Of a DNA stretch of 64,000 bases, positions 4,904-32,068 are shown piece by piece (the first letter of the stretch is position 1; each line of letters opens with the position of its first letter). The position numbers were made by a program, and so were the translations under genes. The DNA lies in the NCBI RefSeq assembly GCF_963667135.1, contig NZ_OY762974.1, positions 1,984,001 through 2,048,000 on the forward strand. The letters run 5' to 3'. Source of the DNA: an uncultured Macellibacteroides sp. GTDB taxonomy: Bacteria > Bacteroidota > Bacteroidia > Bacteroidales > Tannerellaceae. The notes beneath the pieces were generated by a model. That model made no database searches. It saw only the letters and a program-made list of their open reading frames with translations, and had not been told where the DNA came from.

Positions 4904-5397
4904 TGAAAACAATTGAAGTAACAGACGAAATATATTGTTTCCTTGAAAATTTATCAAAGGAAATAAAGTCTCAAGACAACCGTGCAACAGCTTCTCCATA
5001 TTTCTTTCAAGTACAGGAAGATAAAGAAATAGGGGTACCTGAAGGATGCGGTGAAGAAGTATGGATTTCTGATGGAGGAACTATTTTAAGGACAGAAGAT
5101 GAAGTAAAGGAGGCTGTTTTTGAATGGAAAGACTGGACTATTGGAAACGAATCCGATGAAAAGAACTATAAACAACTTGACAGTTTCGATATTGATAGTA
5201 TCATGCAGGAAAACTATAGACAAGTTAATATTGATGTAACTCAAGAATATTCAAACTGCTTTTTGACATACAAGGCATATGAGGAACATATTAGAGTAAA
5301 TGGACACAATTTAAGGAATCCTAAATCATTCCTATTTCATGCTTATCGAAATACAGAGATGGAGATGTTATTCAAGTTTTTACAAGAATCATTTTAA
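4903..5397 (+). CDS. Hypothetical protein linked to PcfJ
   Basis: A 164-residue acidic protein starting in a 1-base overlap with the PcfJ gene (TAATG). The N-terminus (IEVTDEIYCFLENLSKEIKSQ) looks like a helix that could bind a partner; the rest is mixed alpha/beta with no catalytic or membrane motif that I recognise. Small acidic proteins of this sort often follow PcfJ in Bacteroidales elements. Function unknown. Confidence 0.68.
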   Translation: MKTIEVTDEIYCFLENLSKEIKSQDNRATASPYFFQVQEDKEIGVPEGCGEEVWISDGGTILRTEDEVKEAVFEWKDWTIGNESDEKNYKQLDSFDIDSIMQENYRQVNIDVTQEYSNCFLTYKAYEEHIRVNGHNLRNPKSFLFHAYRNTEMEMLFKFLQESF

Positions 5398-5418
5398 ACA
5401 ATTTTAAACAACCATATT

Positions 5419-5592
5419 ATGAGTACTTTAATTATCATTTACATCATATTACTAATTTGCGTTGTGCTGTACTTAATATTCAGCGAAGAATCTGGGCATG
5501 TGCCAGGTGTAAAGTTCTTCATAGGATTACTGTTCTTTGCTTTTACAGTTATCTATTGGCTTACCATTCTCATTGTTTCATTGATTTTTTAA
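5419..5592 (+). CDS. Small two-span membrane protein
   Basis: A 57-residue frame from ATG 5419 to TAA 5590-5592. Two hydrophobic helices (about residues 3-20 and 33-56) flank a short polar loop containing SEESGHVPG. It lies alone in an otherwise empty gap between two clear genes on the same strand. No homology is recognised. A phage membrane protein is the best description. Confidence 0.55.
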   Translation: MSTLIIIYIILLICVVLYLIFSEESGHVPGVKFFIGLLFFAFTVIYWLTILIVSLIF

Positions 5593-5623: not shown

Positions 5624-6040
5624 ATGTTCACACAAAGCTGTTTCATAAGAAAGAATAGTGATAAATTAAGAACGGACCTTGATCATATAAGGAAAAGGAA
5701 TTTATCACAAAAACGGATGCCAATATTGGTATCGACTTTTGATTATTTTTATAGTGTACGTAATTCAGCTGAAGGTATAGAAAACATGATTCTAAATGGG
5801 CTTACTGATTGCGGAACAAACGAGGAATTATTCCTTGCAATAGCTGCACTTCGGGATGATACGGATAAAGATCAGTGGTTCACAGATGGAGCAAACTGGG
5901 AACAATGCGATAGGAATGATTGGATTGACAATATAAGTTCTTTATGTGTTGGTGGTAGGTATAACTATGACAAGGACGGAGAACTGTCAGAGAGCTTCCA
6001 TAAGGCAACGGTTGAAGAGCTTATTGACCACTTCAAATAA
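5624..6040 (+). CDS. Hypothetical phage protein
   Basis: A 138-residue soluble protein with no recognised family. The N-terminal half is basic (RKNSDKLRTDLDHIRKRN) and the C-terminal half is acidic and aromatic (DQWFTDGANWEQCDRNDWID). It follows the small membrane protein by 31 bases and precedes a stable hairpin. It is part of the accessory region. Confidence 0.6.
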   Translation: MFTQSCFIRKNSDKLRTDLDHIRKRNLSQKRMPILVSTFDYFYSVRNSAEGIENMILNGLTDCGTNEELFLAIAALRDDTDKDQWFTDGANWEQCDRNDWIDNISSLCVGGRYNYDKDGELSESFHKATVEELIDHFK

Positions 6041-6307: not shown

Positions 6308-6538
6308 ATGAGTAGCAAGAAATGTGTTGTTGAGATTTATCGCCCATTGTATGGACGAATGGCAGAAGCTTTTTCGGTTGATGGCTTTCAGTGTGACAGG
6401 TGTTCTGGCCGTGGATCATTTCAGCAAGAAGTTGGAGTTGATCAGTACGAAACTACACGTTGTTCTCAATGTGATGGATCTGGTATGTTGAAAGCGTTGG
6501 TAGCAATCAAATGGGTGCCTGGAGGGGATGCGAAATGA
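6308..6538 (+). CDS. DnaJ-type zinc-finger protein
   Basis: A 76-residue protein with two Cys-rich repeats, CDRCSGRG and CSQCDGSG, the CxxCxGxG pattern of the DnaJ central zinc finger. The J domain and the rest of DnaJ are absent. Small proteins with this finger are common in phages and may bind unfolded proteins or nucleic acid. Its stop overlaps the recombinase start in an ATGA (6535-6538), implying coupled translation. Confidence 0.68.
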   Translation: MSSKKCVVEIYRPLYGRMAEAFSVDGFQCDRCSGRGSFQQEVGVDQYETTRCSQCDGSGMLKALVAIKWVPGGDAK

Positions 6539-7440
6539 AACAATTATTTAGTAAGTTAAAGAAGGATTTTGTTGAGAACATTGATGTGAGAGAAAATAGC
6601 CGGGCTCTTTATCTTCGTATACTTAACCAGTTCGGAACCTGGGTTGTGATTGCAAATAGAAACGTTAAAGAGTTGAAGCGTTCAGATATCATCGAATATA
6701 AGTCACATTTATTACGTGAATGTAAAGCTGAGAATACGATTGATTCCTATCTTACTGTTGTAAGGCGGTTTTTTGAATGGTGTGAGGCAATCGGTGAGCA
6801 TGAAAACATAGCTGCCGGTATTAAACTGCACCACAAGAGAATCGGATTCAGGAAAGGGCATTTAAGCACTCAAGAGATTGCCAGGTTGTTTGATGTGATT
6901 GACAGATCAACAATCCATGGAATGCGTGATTATGCAATTATTAATCTCATGTTGCGCTCAGGTATTCGCTGTGTTGAAGTTTCCAGGCTTCGTGTTTGCG
7001 ATATCTACATATCTCCATCTCGTTGTAGCATTCTACTGCAGCGTAAAGGAGACAACTCACGAACTGAGCGTCTAGGATTAACTATCAAAGCACTTCAGCC
7101 GGTACATGATTACATTCAGTATAGAGGCGTATCGAATGAAGATGAACCTGTTTTCTTAACACATTGTTCCACATCGGATGCTGGCCTATCTCCTTCACGC
7201 ATAAGCAAGATTGTTGTTGCTTACATGAAAGCAGCCGGTGTTTACTCAAGCACTAAAACGGCGCATAGTCTGAGACATACAGCAGCCGTTCAGGCGATAA
7301 AGAACAAAGTGCCAATCAAGGAAGTACAGTTGATGTTGGGACACAGAAGAATTGAAACAACGGAAATCTATTTAAAGAGCGTAGACGACGAAATAAGGTT
7401 AGACAATCCAGCTGTTCGTGTGCTTGACGATGTGTTCTGA
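6535..7440 (+). CDS. Tyrosine recombinase (XerC/integrase type)
   Basis: A 301-residue tyrosine recombinase. A SAM-like core-binding domain (about residues 1-95) precedes the catalytic domain with all active-site residues: R145 (SGIRCVEVSRL), K171 (QRKGDN), H244-x-x-R247 (HSLRHT), H270 (LGHRR) and nucleophile Y279 (TEIYLK). ATG 6535 is preferred to the in-frame ATG 6511 because a purine-rich GGAGGGG lies just upstream and the ATGA overlap fits. It could integrate the phage, but it is about 24 kb from the attachment site and not adjacent to the other end, so resolution or another site-specific role is also possible. Confidence 0.9.
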   Translation: MKQLFSKLKKDFVENIDVRENSRALYLRILNQFGTWVVIANRNVKELKRSDIIEYKSHLLRECKAENTIDSYLTVVRRFFEWCEAIGEHENIAAGIKLHHKRIGFRKGHLSTQEIARLFDVIDRSTIHGMRDYAIINLMLRSGIRCVEVSRLRVCDIYISPSRCSILLQRKGDNSRTERLGLTIKALQPVHDYIQYRGVSNEDEPVFLTHCSTSDAGLSPSRISKIVVAYMKAAGVYSSTKTAHSLRHTAAVQAIKNKVPIKEVQLMLGHRRIETTEIYLKSVDDEIRLDNPAVRVLDDVF

Positions 7441-22815: not shown

Positions 22816-24234
22816 ATGGAAATACATAAAATATTACCTGGAAAAGTAAACCCTGTCATGGTGTGCAACACACTTAACATATTTGAAGGGCTTACATTTA
22901 AAACTACAGACGTTGGCACACTTTGCAAAAATGCAAAGAGCAAATGGAGCAAAAGAAAGCCTGTAAGCTATGCTCAGGCTACAGATATATATGGGGTTGA
23001 CGGTCTTAGCGAAACAGTGCTCCGATCGGTTAACTATGGCCTGCAAGCTACCAAAATAGACAGAAGCACTCTGGCCACAACGGAATGGACTTATATAAGG
23101 CCTACAGGAGGTATTACAATATCTCCGTACAGGCTTACTGACTTTAGAGCGTATAATGTAGATGCAAAACCATTTATGCGAATCGATGATGTATTGTGGA
23201 ATCCAAACACAACAAATGTTGATAGCCTGACTATCACTCCTACTTATAAATTTGGGACTAATAGCTACGATGGGAATGTGCAGGCAAACTCCGGGCAATC
23301 TACTGCCGGAATAGAAATATATCCTCAGGATTTGTTGGCTGTTCTATCTAATACCACTATTGCAAATATGTATTTAGGTATTGCCACTAAAGATGTTATT
23401 GGAGGAAATACTATTGAGGGCGTATTTTCACCTGCAAAGATAAATCAAGCTACGAGTCCGGCATTAATGACGATAACTCCAGCTTCCAACGCGAATATAA
23501 AAACACATCTTAATAACATGATGAACGGTGCAACGCTTGAGTTTACTCCTTTTTTCTGTCCGAATAATTTAATGGATAGCTGGACGGCCAATGACGATAA
23601 GTATTCATTACCGTTAGGTCTGAAATTCAAGATTAAAAAAGAGGTGCCGATATATTTTACATTTTATATGCAGTCACTCTCTTTTGTCTCTTCAAATCCT
23701 GGGCTTACCGGACTAGGAGGGCCGAATGTTTATAACGCTCCTGGAACATCACCTATTAGTGAAGGATCAATAACTCCAGTACTTTCCGGCAATTCAAGCG
23801 GAATGTTTAGGCCGTTATCAACAACAACCGCTTCATATAAGTATATTAAATTCAATGCAATTGTATTGTTTAGGAATTTGGGAAATACTGGAGGGCCAAT
23901 AATAATATCACGATCTGATTTTAAAATATCGGCTTTTGGATTTTCCGTACAAGCTGCAAGCTGGACAAATACAGAAGGAGGTTCTTCAGCCGATAATATA
24001 ACTATACCGAATGATGGAATGTATCACAGGGTGGTTATCAATGGTGAATTTACGACTACAGCCGAATGCTATGACGTATTAAGAAGTTTGACTCCTGCAT
24101 CTGTAAGTAATCCGGAATGGAATCAAACGGGGGCTGTACCTAGCAGCGCATTAAGAGCTGTAAGCGGTGGGCTGAAATACCAGGGAGTAGAAATGAATAC
24201 AGGTAATAGTGGAGTTGTATGGATAGACGATTAA
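22816..24234 (+). CDS. Probable tail or baseplate protein
   Basis: A 472-residue protein with no family I can name. It is polar, beta-rich, with many Thr/Asn/Gly turns (ITISPYRLTDFRAYNVDAKP). It starts 2 bases after the fibre gene and overlaps the secreted-protease gene by 16 bases. Its position among the receptor-contacting genes suggests a structural tail component. Confidence 0.62.
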   Translation: MEIHKILPGKVNPVMVCNTLNIFEGLTFKTTDVGTLCKNAKSKWSKRKPVSYAQATDIYGVDGLSETVLRSVNYGLQATKIDRSTLATTEWTYIRPTGGITISPYRLTDFRAYNVDAKPFMRIDDVLWNPNTTNVDSLTITPTYKFGTNSYDGNVQANSGQSTAGIEIYPQDLLAVLSNTTIANMYLGIATKDVIGGNTIEGVFSPAKINQATSPALMTITPASNANIKTHLNNMMNGATLEFTPFFCPNNLMDSWTANDDKYSLPLGLKFKIKKEVPIYFTFYMQSLSFVSSNPGLTGLGGPNVYNAPGTSPISEGSITPVLSGNSSGMFRPLSTTTASYKYIKFNAIVLFRNLGNTGGPIIISRSDFKISAFGFSVQAASWTNTEGGSSADNITIPNDGMYHRVVINGEFTTTAECYDVLRSLTPASVSNPEWNQTGAVPSSALRAVSGGLKYQGVEMNTGNSGVVWIDD

Positions 24235-24671
24235 TCATTATAGTAATGTTGCTGTGGTGCTTTTTAATTGCTAAGGCTCAAAACTACATAGCATTAGAGA
24301 GCAGCGAAAGGCCGATCGTAAAAGTAAACATAAACGGGTCTGAGGCCTATATGCTGATTGATACTGGTTCAAGCATTAATATTTTAACAATGAAAGCCGT
24401 AAAAGCACACAGGCTAAGAATCAGAACAATATATGCCGGTGGTGTTTATTCTGCAACAACAGAAATGCATGCAATTCATGTAGATAAGGCTAAAATAGAT
24501 ATCAGAGGAGCTTTGTTCTATCAATTCTTGACAATAGACATATCACTTATAACAAAAAATATTTTCGAGGAGACCGGAATAGAAATATCCGGGATAATTG
24601 GCACTCCAGCAATAATAAGCTTAGGAATGGTAGTAGACTTAAAGAGAGGAATTATAACTATAAATAAATAA
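24219..24671 (+). CDS. Secreted retropepsin-like aspartic protease
   Basis: A 150-residue protein with an N-terminal signal-peptide-like helix (IIIVMLLWCFLIAKA, then Q). The aspartic-protease motif is at D48-T49-G50 (MLIDTGSSINIL), with a later ISGIIGTPAI that matches the hydrophobic-hydrophobic-Gly element of retropepsins. One DTG implies that two chains form the active site. It lies within the tail genes, so cleavage of a phage or host-surface protein in the envelope is a reasonable inference; the substrate is unknown. Confidence 0.75.
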   Translation: MDRRLIIIVMLLWCFLIAKAQNYIALESSERPIVKVNINGSEAYMLIDTGSSINILTMKAVKAHRLRIRTIYAGGVYSATTEMHAIHVDKAKIDIRGALFYQFLTIDISLITKNIFEETGIEISGIIGTPAIISLGMVVDLKRGIITINK

Positions 24672-24674
24672 AAT

Positions 24675-26030
24675 ATGGCTTTACAAACTGTTTTACAAGG
24701 CGTGCATGTAGATGTTAGCATTCCGGTTACAAGGTTGGCCGGTGAGCCTGAAAATTTTGTGGATATTGAATTTATAAGTTTAAGGTTTAGGCATAGAATT
24801 CGCCCGGGCGTGTTTGTTGAGTTTTTGGGAGATTCAATAAAAATAGAAGCAAATGTACTCTCTCTAACAATCCCTGACACAAGTACAATATTGATGTCGA
24901 CAGGAGAGTACATGCTTGATCTGCTATACAGAAAAACAAATGTATTAAGGCCTAATAACTATGAGCCTTTTAGGCTTATCAAGCCGGTATTCGAAGTCGT
25001 GTCGGAAAGCAGTAAATTAAACAACACGGTTGATACTGAATTGAACATTCAGTCCATAGTGATACAGGGTGAGATTAATTTGCCTAAAGATGGCATTAAC
25101 GGAGCAAGCGCTTTTGACATCTGGAAGGCTTATTACGGAGAAGAAACAAGCACAATTGACGACTATTTTGCCTGGACACATCTTCCAGTGAATGAAGCCG
25201 CAAGCGACTTCGATTTGCTTGTAGTTTCATTTAACGAATTCAACACCTTTGCCAAAGCAGAAGAGCAGAATCGAAAAACGCATGAAACGGAAAGAGATGC
25301 CAGGGAGGGAACTCGAATCGTTGATGAGCAATTAAGAAAAACTGCTGAGATAGGTAGGGAAACTAAGGAAGGAATAAGAAATGAGAATGAGGGAATTAGA
25401 GAGCAGAATGAAGCAGATAGAAGTGAACTTTTCAACCAAAGTATTGAAGAGTCTGTTGCTGCTATAGCAGCCGCTTCAGCAGCCGCTAACGCGCAAAATT
25501 CGTACAATGTAACAACCGCAATTCCTCTTGCGGCCGGAACATATTACACGAAAGCAACCGCACGCGCTGCTATTCCAACTGCAAGCCGCAAGTTGGGATT
25601 AGTCAACACATTCGCTTTGTCCGCAATTTTATGGTATACTGAAAAATATATAGGCAGTACGCTTGCAGGCTGGGCTACTGAATCTAATTGGGAACAGGTT
25701 CCGGATAAGCTACGTGTTGACACTATTGAATCTAATTTAAAGTCAACAGAGCTTCCAATTTCGGAGGCATTAAACATGCTGTATAATAAAATAGTTGCCC
25801 TCGAGAGGCTTGTGTCGTCCGGAATTTTTGGGTCAATACAAGCTGAAAGTATTGATATCATAAAAGATTTAAAATATAGAGGCGCTTCGCTAGTCATTGA
25901 AGGCACTGCAGCCCCGGCTGTTGTCCCCGAATTTATCGGTCAAAAATATATTAATACATCTGGTGCCGGGGTTGTGTATGAAGCGAAAGGCATAACATCC
26001 GTATCAGACTGGAAACAAACAAGCAACTAA
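24675..26030 (+). CDS. Tail fibre / baseplate upper protein
   Basis: A 451-residue protein. The N-terminal about 140 residues form a beta-rich domain like those of baseplate upper (BppU-type) proteins. A short SAFDIWKAYYGEE segment follows, then a long Glu/Arg-rich helical coiled coil (about residues 195-265) and a beta-rich C-terminal part. It ends 1 base before the DGR target gene, so it may be the stalk on which the variable tip is mounted. Confidence 0.7.
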   Translation: MALQTVLQGVHVDVSIPVTRLAGEPENFVDIEFISLRFRHRIRPGVFVEFLGDSIKIEANVLSLTIPDTSTILMSTGEYMLDLLYRKTNVLRPNNYEPFRLIKPVFEVVSESSKLNNTVDTELNIQSIVIQGEINLPKDGINGASAFDIWKAYYGEETSTIDDYFAWTHLPVNEAASDFDLLVVSFNEFNTFAKAEEQNRKTHETERDAREGTRIVDEQLRKTAEIGRETKEGIRNENEGIREQNEADRSELFNQSIEESVAAIAAASAAANAQNSYNVTTAIPLAAGTYYTKATARAAIPTASRKLGLVNTFALSAILWYTEKYIGSTLAGWATESNWEQVPDKLRVDTIESNLKSTELPISEALNMLYNKIVALERLVSSGIFGSIQAESIDIIKDLKYRGASLVIEGTAAPAVVPEFIGQKYINTSGAGVVYEAKGITSVSDWKQTSN

Positions 26031-26031
26031 T

Positions 26032-27357
26032 ATGAAGTACATTAACAATTATGACAATCTGGCTACGTACACAGCAGACGGGAACAGGCCTGTTGATAAA
26101 AGTACCGTTAGTAACATTGCAGACGGAACAGGTTTAAAATTTGAAGGCAAAAATATTATTCTTGAAAAGGAAAGTGCCGAAATAGGGGATATCTGTGTCT
26201 ACGATAAAATAACAAGGAGAAAGATGTTTGTTAAATTTAGCACATTCGCATCCGCTCTACTGCCAGTTAATTTTATTGTCGTTGGGGTTGTTTATTATAG
26301 AACTACGGACAAAGTTCATATATTGTCCGGATGGCAGGATTCGGCACAGTGGGGAGCTCCGTACCAGGTTAAACTCACAGGATTTGATTTGTCTGTTGGA
26401 GGATCATTTACTATTACTATCAATGCTACAACTACAGCGGCGATTGAGTACGCAACAACAGACACGCTTGCAGCTATCGCGACTAAAATAATGACTGCAC
26501 TAACAGCGTCAGGTTTTACATCCGCTACAGGCTGGAGTGTTACAGCCGGTGCTGATTATATAGTCGTGCAACAGAACTGGTATACGCCAAATGTAACTAT
26601 TTTCAATGTCACCGATGCATCATTAAAAATAGCTAAAACAATCTTAACAGGTAATTACCAGACCTCTTTGTCCGGTATAGTTACAGCAAATAGCCAGATT
26701 TTCAGAAATGATAAATCAGTGAGTTCATACGCAGGTGCTAATTTTGCCCGTTTTCTGGCATATTACGAAGTTAACGGAGTTGCTGATGTAAATATCCCTG
26801 TTGGCTCTTCTTCGATCGGAATTATAAAAAGGAGCGTTTTTAATTCGATTGATAACCCTGTTTTATTTGCATACTACGCTAGCTACGAATCTTATATACA
26901 GGATAGGATGACTAAGTACCCATACTCGAAGGGTACTATATTTGCTGATAACGGCAAGTCTGATACGGATAAGCTTTCTGTATCTATGTATACGAATGCT
27001 GCTGGAGTTGTTTCTCCTGCTTATCCGGCCGCCTATAAAGCAAACCGTTACGGTATAAGCGTTGATGGTCATGTTACCGGATTTGAGCCTGGGAATTGGT
27101 GGTTGCCTAGTTCTCCTGAAATGCTTAGGCTAATAAGAAACATTACCTGGGGATTAGCGGGGGTTACGGCCGGGAATGAAGATATTGTAAACAGGGCATT
27201 GGTGTTGATCGGAGGTACAAGGATTAGTGCGACAAGCTACTACTGGTGTTCAGCGGAGTCCTCCAGCTACTACGCCTGGTACTCCAATGGCATCGGCAAC
27301 ATCGCTGCGAACTCCAAGTACGGTTCGTTTGGTGTTAGGCCGGTCACCGCTTTTTAA
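26032..27357 (+). CDS. DGR target: variable receptor-binding tail protein
   Basis: A 441-residue protein whose C-terminus is the variable part of a diversity-generating retroelement. The N-terminal half is beta-rich. The last about 90 residues have the C-type-lectin-like pattern of DGR targets (GNWWLPSSPEMLRLI, then YYWCSAES and FGVRPVTAF). The last 34 codons before the stop are the VR, copied from the TR downstream. Changed residues include S, Y, Y, S, I, A, S, Y, G, F at template Tyr/Asn codons. Retargeting of receptor binding is established for this class of phage protein; the receptor here is unknown. Confidence 0.93.
   Translation: MKYINNYDNLATYTADGNRPVDKSTVSNIADGTGLKFEGKNIILEKESAEIGDICVYDKITRRKMFVKFSTFASALLPVNFIVVGVVYYRTTDKVHILSGWQDSAQWGAPYQVKLTGFDLSVGGSFTITINATTTAAIEYATTDTLAAIATKIMTALTASGFTSATGWSVTAGADYIVVQQNWYTPNVTIFNVTDASLKIAKTILTGNYQTSLSGIVTANSQIFRNDKSVSSYAGANFARFLAYYEVNGVADVNIPVGSSSIGIIKRSVFNSIDNPVLFAYYASYESYIQDRMTKYPYSKGTIFADNGKSDTDKLSVSMYTNAAGVVSPAYPAAYKANRYGISVDGHVTGFEPGNWWLPSSPEMLRLIRNITWGLAGVTAGNEDIVNRALVLIGGTRISATSYYWCSAESSSYYAWYSNGIGNIAANSKYGSFGVRPVTAF
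27253..27354 (+). repeat. DGR variable repeat (VR)
   Basis: 102 bases at the 3' end of the target gene. Aligned codon by codon with the TR, there are 16 substitutions and every one is at an A in the TR (A to C, T or G). One AAC codon of the TR is missing here. The final invariant block, GGTGTTAGGCCGGTCACC (27331-27348), is the likely initiation-of-homing segment. Confidence 0.95.
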
Positions 27358-27378
27358 AATTACTTTAAACTTTATATT

Positions 27379-27389
27379 GCGCAACGCGC
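27379..27389 (+). promoter_or_regulatory. Short hairpin downstream of the VR
   Basis: GCGC-AAC-GCGC, 21 bases after the target stop codon. Several phage DGRs need a hairpin or cruciform shortly after the VR for efficient homing. This stem is only 4 bp, so the match is weak. Confidence 0.3.
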
Positions 27390-27399
27390 CCACTTTCTT

Positions 27400-27750
27400 A
27401 TGATTGAAAAATTACAGATCTATAAAGATACTTATGTGCTTACAAATAAAATGTATGCTGTTTTTACGCAAATGGAAAAATGTCACAGGCACGTTTTAGG
27501 GAGTAAAATGCTTGATTGTGCTCTTGATTTATTCAAGTGGATAGCACTTGCAAATAAGTCGAGAGACAAAGTTGAGCGGTTAAAGTATCTGGATGAGTTT
27601 CTTTCTCAATTTGAGTTATTGAGGGTGTATTTGCGAATATGTTCTGACAATAAGATGCTAAAGCTCAATACGCTTGCAGACTTACATATACTAATAGGAA
27701 ACATATCCCGTCAGCTATCTGGCTGGAAATCCGCCACAACGAGAATGTGA
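27400..27750 (+). CDS. avd: DGR accessory variability determinant (Avd)
   Basis: A 116-residue, basic, all-helical protein with the size and pattern of Avd (IYKDTYVLTNKMYAVFTQME, then FELLRVYLRICSDNKML and the typical ending IGNISRQLSGW). Avd forms a pentameric four-helix bundle that binds the reverse transcriptase and is needed for mutagenic retrohoming. It lies between target and TR, as in the Bordetella phage DGR. Confidence 0.9.
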   Translation: MIEKLQIYKDTYVLTNKMYAVFTQMEKCHRHVLGSKMLDCALDLFKWIALANKSRDKVERLKYLDEFLSQFELLRVYLRICSDNKMLKLNTLADLHILIGNISRQLSGWKSATTRM

Positions 27751-27839
27751 CTACAGAGCGAGTTGCAGAGAGTGATATTTTAATTAAAAGGGCCCTACGC
27801 TGTCATTTTACAGCTAAGAATAAGAAAGTTAGGGAATAT

Positions 27840-27944
27840 GCGGAGTACTCCAGCAACAACGCCTGGTACTACAATGGCAACAACGGCAACATCAATGCGA
27901 ACAACAAGAACAATTCGAATGGTGTTAGGCCGGTCACCGAATTT
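27840..27944 (+). repeat. DGR template repeat (TR)
   Basis: 105 bases between avd and the RT core. Read in the frame of the VR, it has 12 Asn codons (AAC/AAT), the codon that gives the widest amino-acid choice when A is randomised and cannot become a stop. The flanking constant segments match the VR exactly. It lies in an open frame continuous with the RT. Confidence 0.95.
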
Positions 27945-27968
27945 GATAATAATATTAAATTAGTAAAA

Positions 27969-29219
27969 ATGATAAGTATTGAAGATGTATTTGAAGCGTA
28001 CTATTCCTGTAGAAAAAACAAAAGAGGGACTGAGAACGCAATTGATTTTGAGGTTAACTATGAGGAGAATTGTATAAAGCTTTGGCTTGATATTAATGAT
28101 CGTTCTTATAAACCTTCTAAATCTATAGCTTTCATCGTGACAAAGCCTCGAAGACGTGAAATATTTGCGGCAAGTTTTAGAGATAGGATAGTACACCATC
28201 TTATTGACATGAAAATAAGGCCTCTTCTGGAAGCTGATTTTATAGAAAAGACATGCAACAATCGGATAGGCAAAGGAACATCGAAATGTGTTGAATATCT
28301 AAAGGAAGATATAATACTCGTTTCAGAAAATTACACAAAAGATTGCTGGGTGGCAAAAATGGATATGAAAGGCTTCTTTATGTCTATTAGAAAGGACATA
28401 TTAACAGAAAAAATATTGGATTATATTTCTGCCAACTACTTTGAAGAAGATAGGGATGATATAAAATGGCTTACAGACATAACAGTGAACGATCATCCTG
28501 AAAAGAATTGCGTATTAAAGTCTGCCTGGAGTGAATGGAGGCTTCTTGACAAAAACAAAAGTCTGTTTTATGTTGGCGACATTTGCGGGCTGCCAATAGG
28601 AAACCTTATATCTCAGTTATTGGCCAATTTCTATTTAAATGAGTTTGATCATTATGTGAGTGAATCGCTTGGATTTTCTAACTATGGAAGATATGTAGAT
28701 GACTTTTACATCGTACATAACAATAAGGATCATATCCTGAACAGTATTCCTCTTATGAGGGCAAAGCTTGAAGAAATTGGCATAGAACTGCATCCGGATA
28801 AGTTTTATATTCAATACTACACAAGGGGTATTGAGTTAGTTGGAACTGTTATAAAGCCCGAACGAAGTTACGTGCATAACAGGACTGTAAATAATGCTTT
28901 CATGGCTATTCGTGAGCTTAATAAAATTGAAGATATTGAAGCAAATACCGGACGTTTTATTTCGATTGTTAACTCATATTTGGGGTTTATGAAGGTTAAC
29001 TGCAGCTACGCAATACGCAGAAATCTACTGGTTGAGCTAGAAAAAAAATGGTGGGATATAATTTATGTTGATGCAAATTTCGGAAAGGTAGTACTCAGGA
29101 ACAGACACAAAGAAAAAATACAGGTTAAAGAAGAAATTATTATTAATCAAGTCAAAAACAAAAGAAAAGTAAATGGAAAATCGAAATCTGATAAACGAAA
29201 AAGAAGGGAAAATTCTTGA
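27969..29219 (+). CDS. DGR reverse transcriptase
   Basis: A 416-residue group-II-like reverse transcriptase. Motifs: RREIFAASFRDRIVHHLI; catalytic D132 (KMDMKGFF); I210-G-N-L-I-S-Q216, the variant of QGxxxSP that marks DGR enzymes; and Y242-V-D-D245. No maturase or endonuclease domain follows. It copies the TR RNA with errors at adenines to give cDNA for the VR. ATG 27969 starts the conserved RT N-terminus (MISIEDVFEAYYSC); the frame is open back to a GTG at 27747 through the whole TR. Confidence 0.95.
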   Translation: MISIEDVFEAYYSCRKNKRGTENAIDFEVNYEENCIKLWLDINDRSYKPSKSIAFIVTKPRRREIFAASFRDRIVHHLIDMKIRPLLEADFIEKTCNNRIGKGTSKCVEYLKEDIILVSENYTKDCWVAKMDMKGFFMSIRKDILTEKILDYISANYFEEDRDDIKWLTDITVNDHPEKNCVLKSAWSEWRLLDKNKSLFYVGDICGLPIGNLISQLLANFYLNEFDHYVSESLGFSNYGRYVDDFYIVHNNKDHILNSIPLMRAKLEEIGIELHPDKFYIQYYTRGIELVGTVIKPERSYVHNRTVNNAFMAIRELNKIEDIEANTGRFISIVNSYLGFMKVNCSYAIRRNLLVELEKKWWDIIYVDANFGKVVLRNRHKEKIQVKEEIIINQVKNKRKVNGKSKSDKRKRRENS

Positions 29220-29403
29220 GTATAAGTCTTTTTTGTACGCAACCGATTACGTAGTAATACGCAATCAGGAAACTGGGCAAACAATCCCTGAAGATATTAA
29301 AGAAGAAAGATCCCTCGCAAGAGCCGCTATTAATGCGCTTGAATTGGAACTTAACGATCTTGCCAATCAACTCGATGAAGATAATCAAGTTGATCTAGCC
29401 TAA
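29173..29403 (+). CDS. Small phage protein after the RT
   Basis: A 76-residue acidic, helical protein (ERSLARAAINALELELNDLA) overlapping the RT 3' end by 47 bases. Proteins of this type sit between tail and lysis genes in Bacteroidales phages, with no known function. A link to the DGR is not indicated beyond position. Confidence 0.6.
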   Translation: MENRNLINEKEGKILEYKSFLYATDYVVIRNQETGQTIPEDIKEERSLARAAINALELELNDLANQLDEDNQVDLA

Positions 29404-29430: not shown

Positions 29431-29892
29431 ATGGAGATGATGAAAATGTTTGGATTTGAGCAGGAGTCTGTTTATAGAGCCCTGGCTGTTTTAGCACTAA
29501 TCTATTTTGGCGTTATGTTTGCTGTTGGTTGCGATCTGGTATCAGGAATAAAGAAGGCAAAAAAAAGAGGTGAAATGAGACGTTCAAACCTACTAAGAAT
29601 GACAGTAAAAAAACTTTCTGAATATTGGAACGTACTTCTTGCCGGGCTTGCGCCTGATATTATATGTTATGCCGTTGGGTGGTATGATCTACCATTCGCA
29701 ACGGCAATAGTGGCTCTGTTCATTGTAGGAATAGAAATTAAGTCCATTTACGAAAAAGCGGAGAATAAGAAGAAATACAAAGAAGTGGCTGAAGTAGCTG
29801 GAAAAGTTGTTGTGAACAGGGATAATATAGAAGAAGTATCAAAAGCACTTAATGAATATTTTAATAATAAAGACGATGAAAAAGGAAAGTAA
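29431..29892 (+). CDS. Phage holin family protein
   Basis: A 153-residue membrane protein with the phage holin-4 pattern: helix about 17-36 (ALAVLALIYFGVMFAVGCDL), the conserved DLVSGIKKAKKRGE loop, and two further helices around LLAGLAPDIICYAVG and ATAIVALFIVGIEI, then a charged tail. It makes inner-membrane holes at lysis. It overlaps the next gene by 17 bases. Confidence 0.85.
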   Translation: MEMMKMFGFEQESVYRALAVLALIYFGVMFAVGCDLVSGIKKAKKRGEMRRSNLLRMTVKKLSEYWNVLLAGLAPDIICYAVGWYDLPFATAIVALFIVGIEIKSIYEKAENKKKYKEVAEVAGKVVVNRDNIEEVSKALNEYFNNKDDEKGK

Positions 29893-30298
29893 ACAGGCGC
29901 GAGGAGCGAGAAACAAAAATCATGGCAACATTCTTAACAGCCCAAAAACAAAATGGATGGGAGAAGTTGATGAAATTCAAAAAAAAGACTCGAAATTTGA
30001 AGAATTCAAAGAGTCTAAATTTGGTTACAGAGCGTTAATTAAAACGCTTCAAACATATCGGATCAAACATAATTGTCAGACAATTGAGGACTTCATAAAA
30101 AGATGGGCTCCACCCATCGAAAACAACACCTCAAACTATATTTCAAGAGTGTGCAAGGAAATGCAGGTTCCTAGTGTTTATATACCAGATATCAATGATC
30201 AGGCTACAATGGTTGCATTTGCGGCCGCCATAAGTATTGTTGAGAACGGCGATCGTCCCATAATGAAAGACATTATAGAAGGATGGAGGTTGTTATGA
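29876..30298 (+). CDS. Probable phage lysin / P5-like protein
   Basis: A 140-residue protein starting at ATG 29876 (MKKESKQARG). The N-terminal ARGARNKNHGNILNSPKTKW is the pattern (RGxRNxNxGNI) of a muramidase-like family in Bacteroidales phages often labelled structural protein P5. It lies directly after the holin and before an envelope protein, so cell-wall cleavage at lysis is likely. Enzyme activity is inferred, not shown. Confidence 0.7.
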   Translation: MKKESKQARGARNKNHGNILNSPKTKWMGEVDEIQKKDSKFEEFKESKFGYRALIKTLQTYRIKHNCQTIEDFIKRWAPPIENNTSNYISRVCKEMQVPSVYIPDINDQATMVAFAAAISIVENGDRPIMKDIIEGWRLL

Positions 30299-30916: not shown

Positions 30917-30961
30917 CGTCTGGGGGGCGCGTGGTCGGACGTTCGAATCGTCTCACCCCGA
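30917..30961 (+). other. Phage attachment site (attR): 3' half of tRNA-Pro(GGG)
   Basis: The sequence contains the 3' side of a tRNA: anticodon loop CTGGGGG with anticodon GGG; T-arm with stem GGACG/CGTCT and loop TTCGAAT (30937-30953); acceptor 3' strand CACCCCG (30954-30960); and discriminator A (30961). No D-arm or 5' acceptor strand is present, so this is not a functional gene. A 3' tRNA fragment at a prophage edge is the classic signature of integration into a tRNA gene; the intact tRNA should be at the unseen left end. Confidence 0.82.
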
Positions 30962-30975
30962 CTAACTGATAATTA

Positions 30976-31008
30976 AGCACTTACATTAAGTTGTAGGTGC
31001 TTTTTTTT
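30976..31008 (+). terminator. Intrinsic terminator of the tRNA locus
   Basis: A 10-bp stem, AGCACTTACA / TGTAGGTGCT (one G-T pair), with a short loop, followed by an 8-base T-run. It directly follows the tRNA fragment, so it is probably the original terminator of the host tRNA gene and now also ends phage right-end transcription. Confidence 0.85.
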
Positions 31009-31072: not shown

Positions 31073-32068
31073 CTAAGCATAAATTTTGCATAATCTGTAG
31101 AGAAAAAATTTAATGTCTGTTACCCCTCTAAACTGTCTTCTGAACTCTTTTATCTTTGCATTAAACGATTCAGCAGCTGCGTTTGTGCTTCTGCTGTTAA
31201 AGTAGTTTATAATGGTATTGTGATGTGTCTCAAAAGTTTTTCTAACTGTAGAGAATGCATTAAATCCCGCTTCTTCTACCTGGCTGAACCATTGAGCCAG
31301 TTTTGCTCTGGCCACATCAGGCGATATTTGACGGTTATAGATTTTGTAAAGACTATAAGATAGCTCGTAGCCTTTTTTAATATCAGGATAAAGTTCAAAT
31401 AATATATGTGCTCTATGCCATTGCGAAAGGGTCCATTTTTCTTCTGGTTTAAATAGCAGATACCGACTTCTGGCCAGCAACTGTTTTCGGGTATCTCCAT
31501 TTGCTAATACCTCTGGTTGATATTCAATACCCTTTTCTTTGGCTTTTTTGTAAGCTGTATTTTCCGCGTCCAGAGTTTCCCACCGATGCTTAATCCGGAT
31601 GTCCTGTACGGCTTCATAAGCCAGCTTCTGTACATGAAAACGGTCCGTTACCCGTTTAGCCCGGGGAAAGCAACTTTTGACAATCAGGTTCATATTGGCA
31701 GCCATATCTAGAGTGACTTCACGGACTATTTTGCGTTGTTGTTCTGAATAATGCTTAAGTATAAGTCTTATGATTTCATTGGATTCGGTTCCTTCAAATA
31801 TACCAACAATAGAACCTTTCTGGCCTTTTCTGGCTTTATTGGTGATGATGGTATAAAGCTCACCGTTCGAGAGGGATGTTTCATCAATGGTCAGGTAAGG
31901 TCCTAGATTTTTGGGGTAAACGATGTATTTTTCCGCATGTGGACCTTGTCTCCAATGGCGAAAATCACTTAGCTTTTCTTTATATTGTCGCTGAAAGTTA
32001 CGCCCGTTAACTCCCAGATAGATTTCAATGCTTTGACAACTGATTGCGTTAGTATCGACTAATTTCTT
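31073..32068 (-). CDS. Transposase, catalytic frame (ORF B)
   Basis: About 330 residues of DDE transposase. The catalytic triad is visible: D in LTIDETSLSNGELYTII, D in EVTLDMAANMN, and E in NAAAESFNAKIKEF. The frame opens at 32068 but has no ATG before the second catalytic Asp (first ATG at 31705), so a complete enzyme needs expression from ORF A by a +1 (or -2) shift, or an unusual start. Family: DDE_Tnp_ISL3-like, as in ISAon1-type elements of Bacteroidetes. Confidence 0.85.
   Translation of the reverse strand, partial: KKLVDTNAISCQSIEIYLGVNGRNFQRQYKEKLSDFRHWRQGPHAEKYIVYPKNLGPYLTIDETSLSNGELYTIITNKARKGQKGSIVGIFEGTESNEIIRLILKHYSEQQRKIVREVTLDMAANMNLIVKSCFPRAKRVTDRFHVQKLAYEAVQDIRIKHRWETLDAENTAYKKAKEKGIEYQPEVLANGDTRKQLLARSRYLLFKPEEKWTLSQWHRAHILFELYPDIKKGYELSYSLYKIYNRQISPDVARAKLAQWFSQVEEAGFNAFSTVRKTFETHHNTIINYFNSRSTNAAAESFNAKIKEFRRQFRGVTDIKFFLYRLCKIYA

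Follow-up and report, generated by a model that had tools for sequence, protein, structure and literature searches.

The diversity-generating retroelement (DGR) of the Bordetella phage BPP-1 is arranged in the order target gene, avd, template repeat (TR) and reverse transcriptase (RT), its target protein is Mtd, and known DGRs, as in the BPP-1 literature, have a fixed difference between the 3′ ends of the variable repeat (VR) and the TR, which are referred to as IMH and IMH* (initiation of mutagenic homing). The closest named phages to the element considered here are the Bacteroides uniformis siphophages F1, F2, and F4 (the Bacuni phages), in which the order is also target, Avd, TR, and RT, and the VR occupies the final ~35 codons of the target, which is of DUF1566 type, and differs from the TR at adenines (PMC8143477). 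The hankyphage of Bacteroides dorei is a temperate phage with 117-bp repeats that differ at 14 adenine positions and with an Avd-like small open reading frame (ORF) (PMC6199706). Here, we analyzed a stretch of 64,000 nt (the window; positions 1,984,001–2,048,000 of contig NZ_OY762974.1, assembly GCF_963667135.1) from an uncultured Macellibacteroides sp. of the Tannerellaceae, in which a DGR shares the gene order and the adenine differences. An earlier sequence-only reading had described it as a complete DGR in a Bacteroidales prophage, and our analyses bear this out: RT, bAvd (accessory variability determinant), TR, VR, adenine-only differences, a conserved 3′ block, and both prophage ends are present. 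We consider it very probable that this is a complete phage DGR in which the RT and bAvd rewrite, from the TR and by mutagenic retrohoming, the 3′ VR of a target gene located after the tail genes.

Components of the element and its TR/VR pair

The four parts lie on the forward strand in the order that had been reported. The target gene (26032–27357, stop codon 27355–27357) encodes 441 aa and follows the tail genes, and its final 34 codons form the VR (27253–27354). Downstream are a bAvd gene of 116 aa (27400–27750), a TR of 105 nt containing 36 adenines (27840–27944), and a DGR-type RT of 416 aa (27969–29219), the start ATG of which was placed by alignment with relatives. The bAvd gene matches the Pfam model bAvd (PF22296, E 2.7e-18, above the cut-off of the model) and phrog_3206, "Avd protein of DGR" (E 1.9e-18), and the RT matches RVT_1 (E 7.7e-17) and phrog_1423 (E 2.5e-80). 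Both reading frames are open, and the nearest solved RT in a profile search is 8ub7 (E 3.4e-31), which we take to be the RT of BPP-1. The RT carries the motifs IGNLISQ and YVDD, and SQ after IGN marks DGR-type RTs (PMC3521204).

A global alignment of the TR with the VR revealed 16 substitutions, all of which are at TR adenines (eight A>T, five A>C, and three A>G), and no mismatch at any of the 68 aligned non-adenine bases. With 34 adenines among the 102 aligned columns, the chance that all 16 substitutions hit adenines is 1.2e-9. The count and placement of substitutions are those that had been obtained by hand; the hand alignment had not mentioned a 3-nt gap, at which the TR reads GGC-AAC-AAC-GGC and the VR reads GGC-ATC-GGC. 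Near its 3′ end, the VR contains an IMH-like block of 20 nt (27330–27349) that is identical to TR positions 27920–27939, and this block is followed directly by GAATTT in the TR and by GCTTTT in the VR. Among the surveyed TRs that have GAATT no more than 45 columns from their 3′ end, the VR reads exactly GCTTT in 15 of 17 rows (some loci are counted twice), and the GAA/GCT change also occurs in loci L003 and L028 of the survey described below. Two of the 16 substitutions are probably, judging from these relatives, a fixed 3′-end mark, one that resembles the IMH/IMH* difference of known DGRs. Because these two belong to the mark, 14 substitutions are likely to be mutagenic, and the chance that 14 all fall on the 32 adenines of 100 columns is 1.1e-8. 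When the whole genome was searched at the DNA level with the TR as query (E ≤ 0.001), only the TR itself and one VR were returned, and no second VR. The complete agreement at non-adenine positions suggests that the last homing was recent.

In the mechanism that we propose, the RT together with bAvd would copy a TR-containing RNA into cDNA while misreading adenines. Beginning at the 3′ block common to both repeats, this cDNA would take the place of the VR that closes the target gene, and the target would thereby gain a new C-terminal surface loop.

To place the element among its relatives, we collected RT relatives from viral contigs (2, plus 80 kept of 127), genome contigs (80 kept of 125), phage records (3 taken of 105 with a match), and same-family genomes (9 of 123 searched, including that of the window). 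The resulting loci are designated by L numbers. An adenine-biased repeat scan of 177 loci, which include the window and a few duplicates (L003/L119 and L028/L091), yielded alignable adenine-biased TR/VR pairs in 147 loci. Four of the 180 aligned pairs in these loci were dropped (a TR on the wrong strand taken for a VR), resulting in 176 pairs with 163 VRs and a non-redundant set of 154 VR rows in 139 loci; the GAATT/GCTTT counts above and the hairpin counts and identical-TR pairs described later come from the 158-row set that preceded removal of wrong-strand rows. In the 154 rows, 2679 of 6486 TR adenines are changed compared with 178 of 12,348 other bases. Because the changes concentrate at TR adenines across the relatives, this RT family is a DGR family.

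The nearest relative found for both the RT (58% identity) and the full-length target (40%) is L003 (IMG/VR 3300029823_000001, the same contig as L119), which has the same gene order and the same GAA/GCT end mark as the window. Unlike in the window, its TR (5889–5993) and VR (5316–5420) also differ at about ten non-adenine positions, roughly as many as the adenine differences, and the repeat scan recovered no pair there; the TR of L003 has the appearance of a rewritten repeat.

A longer ORF (27747–29219) runs through the TR of the window into the RT in frame. We considered whether translation of the TR adds an N-terminal extension to the RT and rejected this as a shared feature, given that in-frame run-through was found in 27 of 131 classed loci, which is below the third expected by chance (20 more loci were unclassable, and the classing covers loci with an aligned pair, thus not L003 or L039).

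Codon gaps, loop length, and template arrays

The codon that is absent from the VR of the window was most likely lost from the VR itself, the RT or the cDNA having slipped in the AAC-AAC run, and the position of the gap fits slippage at AAC repeats. Slippage in multiples of three has been posited for indels in AAC repeats (PMC12875486, citing Wu 2018), and the idea as such is therefore already in print. In the 154 non-redundant rows, we identified 24 codon-type gaps (3 or 6 nt), distributed over 22 of the 139 loci, including the window; gaps near pair ends or beside more than one non-adenine mismatch were left out. Twenty-one of the 24 are at tandem AAY runs, defined as AAC/AAT units that occur twice in tandem, whatever the register, no more than 9 nt away, compared with 12.0 (sd 2.4) expected from random placement within the same TRs, and none of 2000 random placements reached 21. 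The three remaining gaps are in L164, L166, and L184. Five of the 24 gaps occur in loci with multiple TRs (L034, L064 with two, L106, and L068); another template may explain those in L034, L064, and L106, and the L068 row compares two TR copies in a locus in which no VR was identified. Without these four loci, there are 19 gaps in 18 loci, 16 of them at AAY runs. Ten gaps of other lengths (1, 2, 4, 8, or 15 nt) in L004, L069, L071, L103, L193, and L194 do not follow the codon pattern, with three each in L193 and L103. The VRs of L103 at 1928, 6029, and 10001 have 1- or 2-nt gaps relative to the TR that would put the target out of frame.

Four pairs of loci have TRs that are letter-identical over 108–115 nt and VRs in which the length or the site of the gap differs. 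In the pair L047/L128, each VR is short by one codon at a different place, and the VRs of L121, L165, and L158 are one codon longer than those of L122, L178, and L026, respectively. Because the TRs in these pairs are identical, the change in length took place on the VR side, and the pairs would be comparative evidence for the published idea. We lean, by a small margin of confidence, toward the view that this DGR and its relatives vary the length of the receptor loop in addition to its residues: the mutagenic RT would slip on tandem AAC codons and so gain or lose whole codons, and since each slip spans a codon, the reading frame would be preserved. If so, the tandem AAC codons of a TR serve both residue diversity and length diversity. 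The codon gap and the pairs with a common template are natural evidence for a possible change of loop length by DGRs, a point of relevance to the variety they can attain.

A somewhat less probable but still substantial alternative is that homing did not cause the loss of the codon: ordinary microsatellite slippage may have added an AAC to the TR once the last homing was over, or replication slippage may have removed a codon from the VR. TRs can indeed change length alone, as the copies inside the arrays of L068 and L106 differ in AAC number, and the single TR/VR pair of the window cannot tell which side changed. The identical-TR pairs, in contrast, place the change on the VR side in those loci, and the gaps favor AAY runs of the TR that are broken up in the mutated VR, which would make later replication slippage in the VR less likely. 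On balance, slippage during homing is the reading that we prefer.

The survey also uncovered ten related loci in which one RT has two to four TR-like copies nearby, as judged by adenine content and bias. These are L034 (2 copies), L035 (3), L036 (3), L037 (4), and L038 (4), all from same-family genomes; L106 (2) from a Prevotella metagenome-assembled genome (MAG); and L045 (3), L064 (2), L065 (3), and L068 (4), from MAGs labelled Alphaproteobacteria, proteobacterium, or Azospirillum. In most of these loci, the copies are arranged in units of ~255–375 nt. The VR of L064 agrees in its 5′ half with the TR at 6787 and in its 3′ half with the TR at 6518, and the VR of L036 similarly fits one TR in its 5′ part and another in its 3′ part, which suggests that these VRs were assembled from more than one template, possibly through partial homing in successive rounds. 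PMC6642488 mentions one DGR that has two TRs, and no paper on mosaic VRs was among the results of our literature search on several TRs per DGR. If confirmed, the TR arrays of these distant relatives would matter more than the DGR of the window.

Target protein, prophage setting, and possible activity

The sequence-only reading had called the target C-type-lectin-like. This label gains its support from the relatives of the protein and a weak fold match; it is not borne out by a Pfam scan of the protein itself. In an alignment of the C-terminal domain of the target with its relatives, 64 of 69 members match the Pfam model Lcl_C (PF07603), the window protein not being among them, and a profile of the 69 members matches PDB entries 8q4e (E 4.7e-15) and 4eps, a fimbrial protein of B. 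ovatus (E 1.9e-7). An AlphaFold model of the C-terminal 237 residues is usable only from about residue 96, with block means mostly between 66 and 87 from residue 101 of the piece and one block at 56. With this model, the best Foldseek matches are again 8q4e, named Lcl C-terminal domain in the result (E 3.9e-3, probability 1.00), and 4eps (E 6.1e-2), both of which are weak. Judging from these relatives, the C-terminal domain is a probable member of Lcl_C, and it is this Lcl_C-like domain, located C-terminally in the target, that bears the VR.

Relatives of the target were identified by TBLASTN in L003 (40% identity over residues 1–441), L041 (32% over 1–441), and L040 (43% over 221–441), and each of these adjoins a related RT. 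The whole target gave nothing at E 1e-5 against phage records, and as a query against viral contigs it yielded no confirmed relative, L003 having been found through its RT instead. Given the position of its gene after the tail genes and published precedents, the most likely role of the target is binding of a host receptor, as had been proposed.

The assignment to a prophage rests on an attachment (att) repeat of 73 bp that consists of the 3′ part of a tRNA-Pro gene and 27 bases downstream of it and that is exact at both ends. The tRNA-Pro(GGG) gene (genome positions 1977444–1977519; L199 13444–13519) marks one end and attR (30917–30989, forward strand) the other, and the spacing of the two copies, 37,443 bp, gives a prophage of 37.4 kb. 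Next to the tRNA-Pro gene is an ORF of 412 aa that is tyrosine recombinase-like as judged by eye. Between the att copies are helicase, second integrase-like, terminase, portal, head, connector, major-tail, and tape-measure genes, followed by genes without a clear family match, the DGR, and holin- and lysis-like genes. All phage records that match the terminase are less than 60% identical to it, with the best among the ten matches listed at 38.6%. Because the prophage ends are known and the host genome is a single contig of 4.46 Mb, activity of the element is directly testable.

Several results weigh against the proposed reading. The full-length model of the target is poor (mean pLDDT 53.7), the 441-aa protein has no Pfam or PHROG match of its own, and the Foldseek search with its C-terminal domain returned nothing at E ≤ 0.001. 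No second copy of the phage was found and thus no variation of the VR among sister copies was seen; the best RT relative on viral contigs is 58% identical, and G027, a genome of the same species, has no match. In addition, the hairpin past the VR of the window is a short GC hairpin with a 4-bp stem and an AAC loop (27379–27389, forward strand, 24 nt past the VR), a weak candidate for a target-recognition hairpin (z of the DNA fold −1.98; 10 of 200 shuffles at least as good). Hairpins of phage DGRs have stems of 7–10 bp and loops of 4 nt and matter for homing in BPP-1 (PMC3240598), so that the stem of the window is short by comparison. We searched the related loci for stems of at least 6 bp, at least half G/C, with a loop of 3–8 nt, in the interval that begins 10 nt before the end of the VR row and extends to 70 nt past it. 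Among the 144 of 158 rows examined (rows on the other strand or with short sequence were skipped), 86 have such a hairpin compared with 3.2 expected from single-base shuffles.

The small hairpin, or a prophage that is not expressed, might mean that the DGR was recently silenced and now retains only its parts and the marks of past homing, and the fact that no sister-phage sequence shows current variation is in keeping with this. We regard silencing as unlikely, since the RT and Avd frames are open, none of the 68 non-adenine positions has changed, and both att ends are present. That the TR and VR are merely two similar copies, 587–590 nt apart, kept alike by gene conversion without action of an RT is in practice refuted by a difference confined to adenines (chance 1e-9), by the RT and Avd genes alongside, and by the same pattern in 147 of 177 scanned loci. 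A DGR that rewrites its target by mutagenic retrohoming, and that may be active at present, thus remains the explanation that we strongly favor.

Other genes surround the element. Just upstream of the target, past the tail genes, is a gene of 451 aa (24675–26030, forward strand) with only weak PHROG matches. It is preceded by an ORF of 150 aa (24219–24668) that lies after the tail genes and before the DGR and encodes a retropepsin-like aspartyl protease domain (PF13650, E 1.7e-6). This ORF weakly matches one phage record annotated as aspartyl protease and does not match a phage F2 gene of similar length and place. Downstream, a small ORF (29173–29403) separates the DGR from holin-like and lysis-like genes (29431–30298, forward strand; Phage_holin_4_1, E 3.2e-5, and phrog_873, described as endolysin, E 3.7e-41). 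Just beyond attR is an ORF of 210 aa (31073–31705) that resembles a transposase fragment by eye.

Relationship to known DGRs

In addition to sharing gene order and the position of the VR with the window, the Bacuni phages have the same fimbrial tip protein (4eps, bacova_04982) as structure match, and they differ in having two target genes (PMC8143477), whereas the genome of the window has one VR. Their RTs are only 41.5–43.6% identical to that of the window, and an unannotated faecal phage record, MT836212.1, is nearer with 48.0%. The RT of phage F4 (L027 9001–10128) lacks 19 residues that are present in F2 (L026 9001–10185), the window, L003, and L025. In PMC8143477, the difference is described as an insertion in the F2 RT; the relatives suggest a deletion in the F4 RT instead, and the F4 RT may be inactive.

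The hankyphage, which resembles the window in its repeats and Avd-like ORF, differs in that it encodes a Mu-like transposase and a target exceeding 2000 residues (PMC6199706), compared with integration at tRNA-Pro and a target of 441 aa in the window. BPP-1 has an IMH-like 3′ block and adenine mutagenesis in common with the window, and differs in its larger hairpin after the VR (PMC3240598) and in an RT that is distant from that of the window. Overall, the window contributes a clean and complete DGR in a Bacteroidales prophage, the whole-length target of which has relatives beside other DGRs, and it is a new example of a known system with a small twist, the codon lost from its VR.

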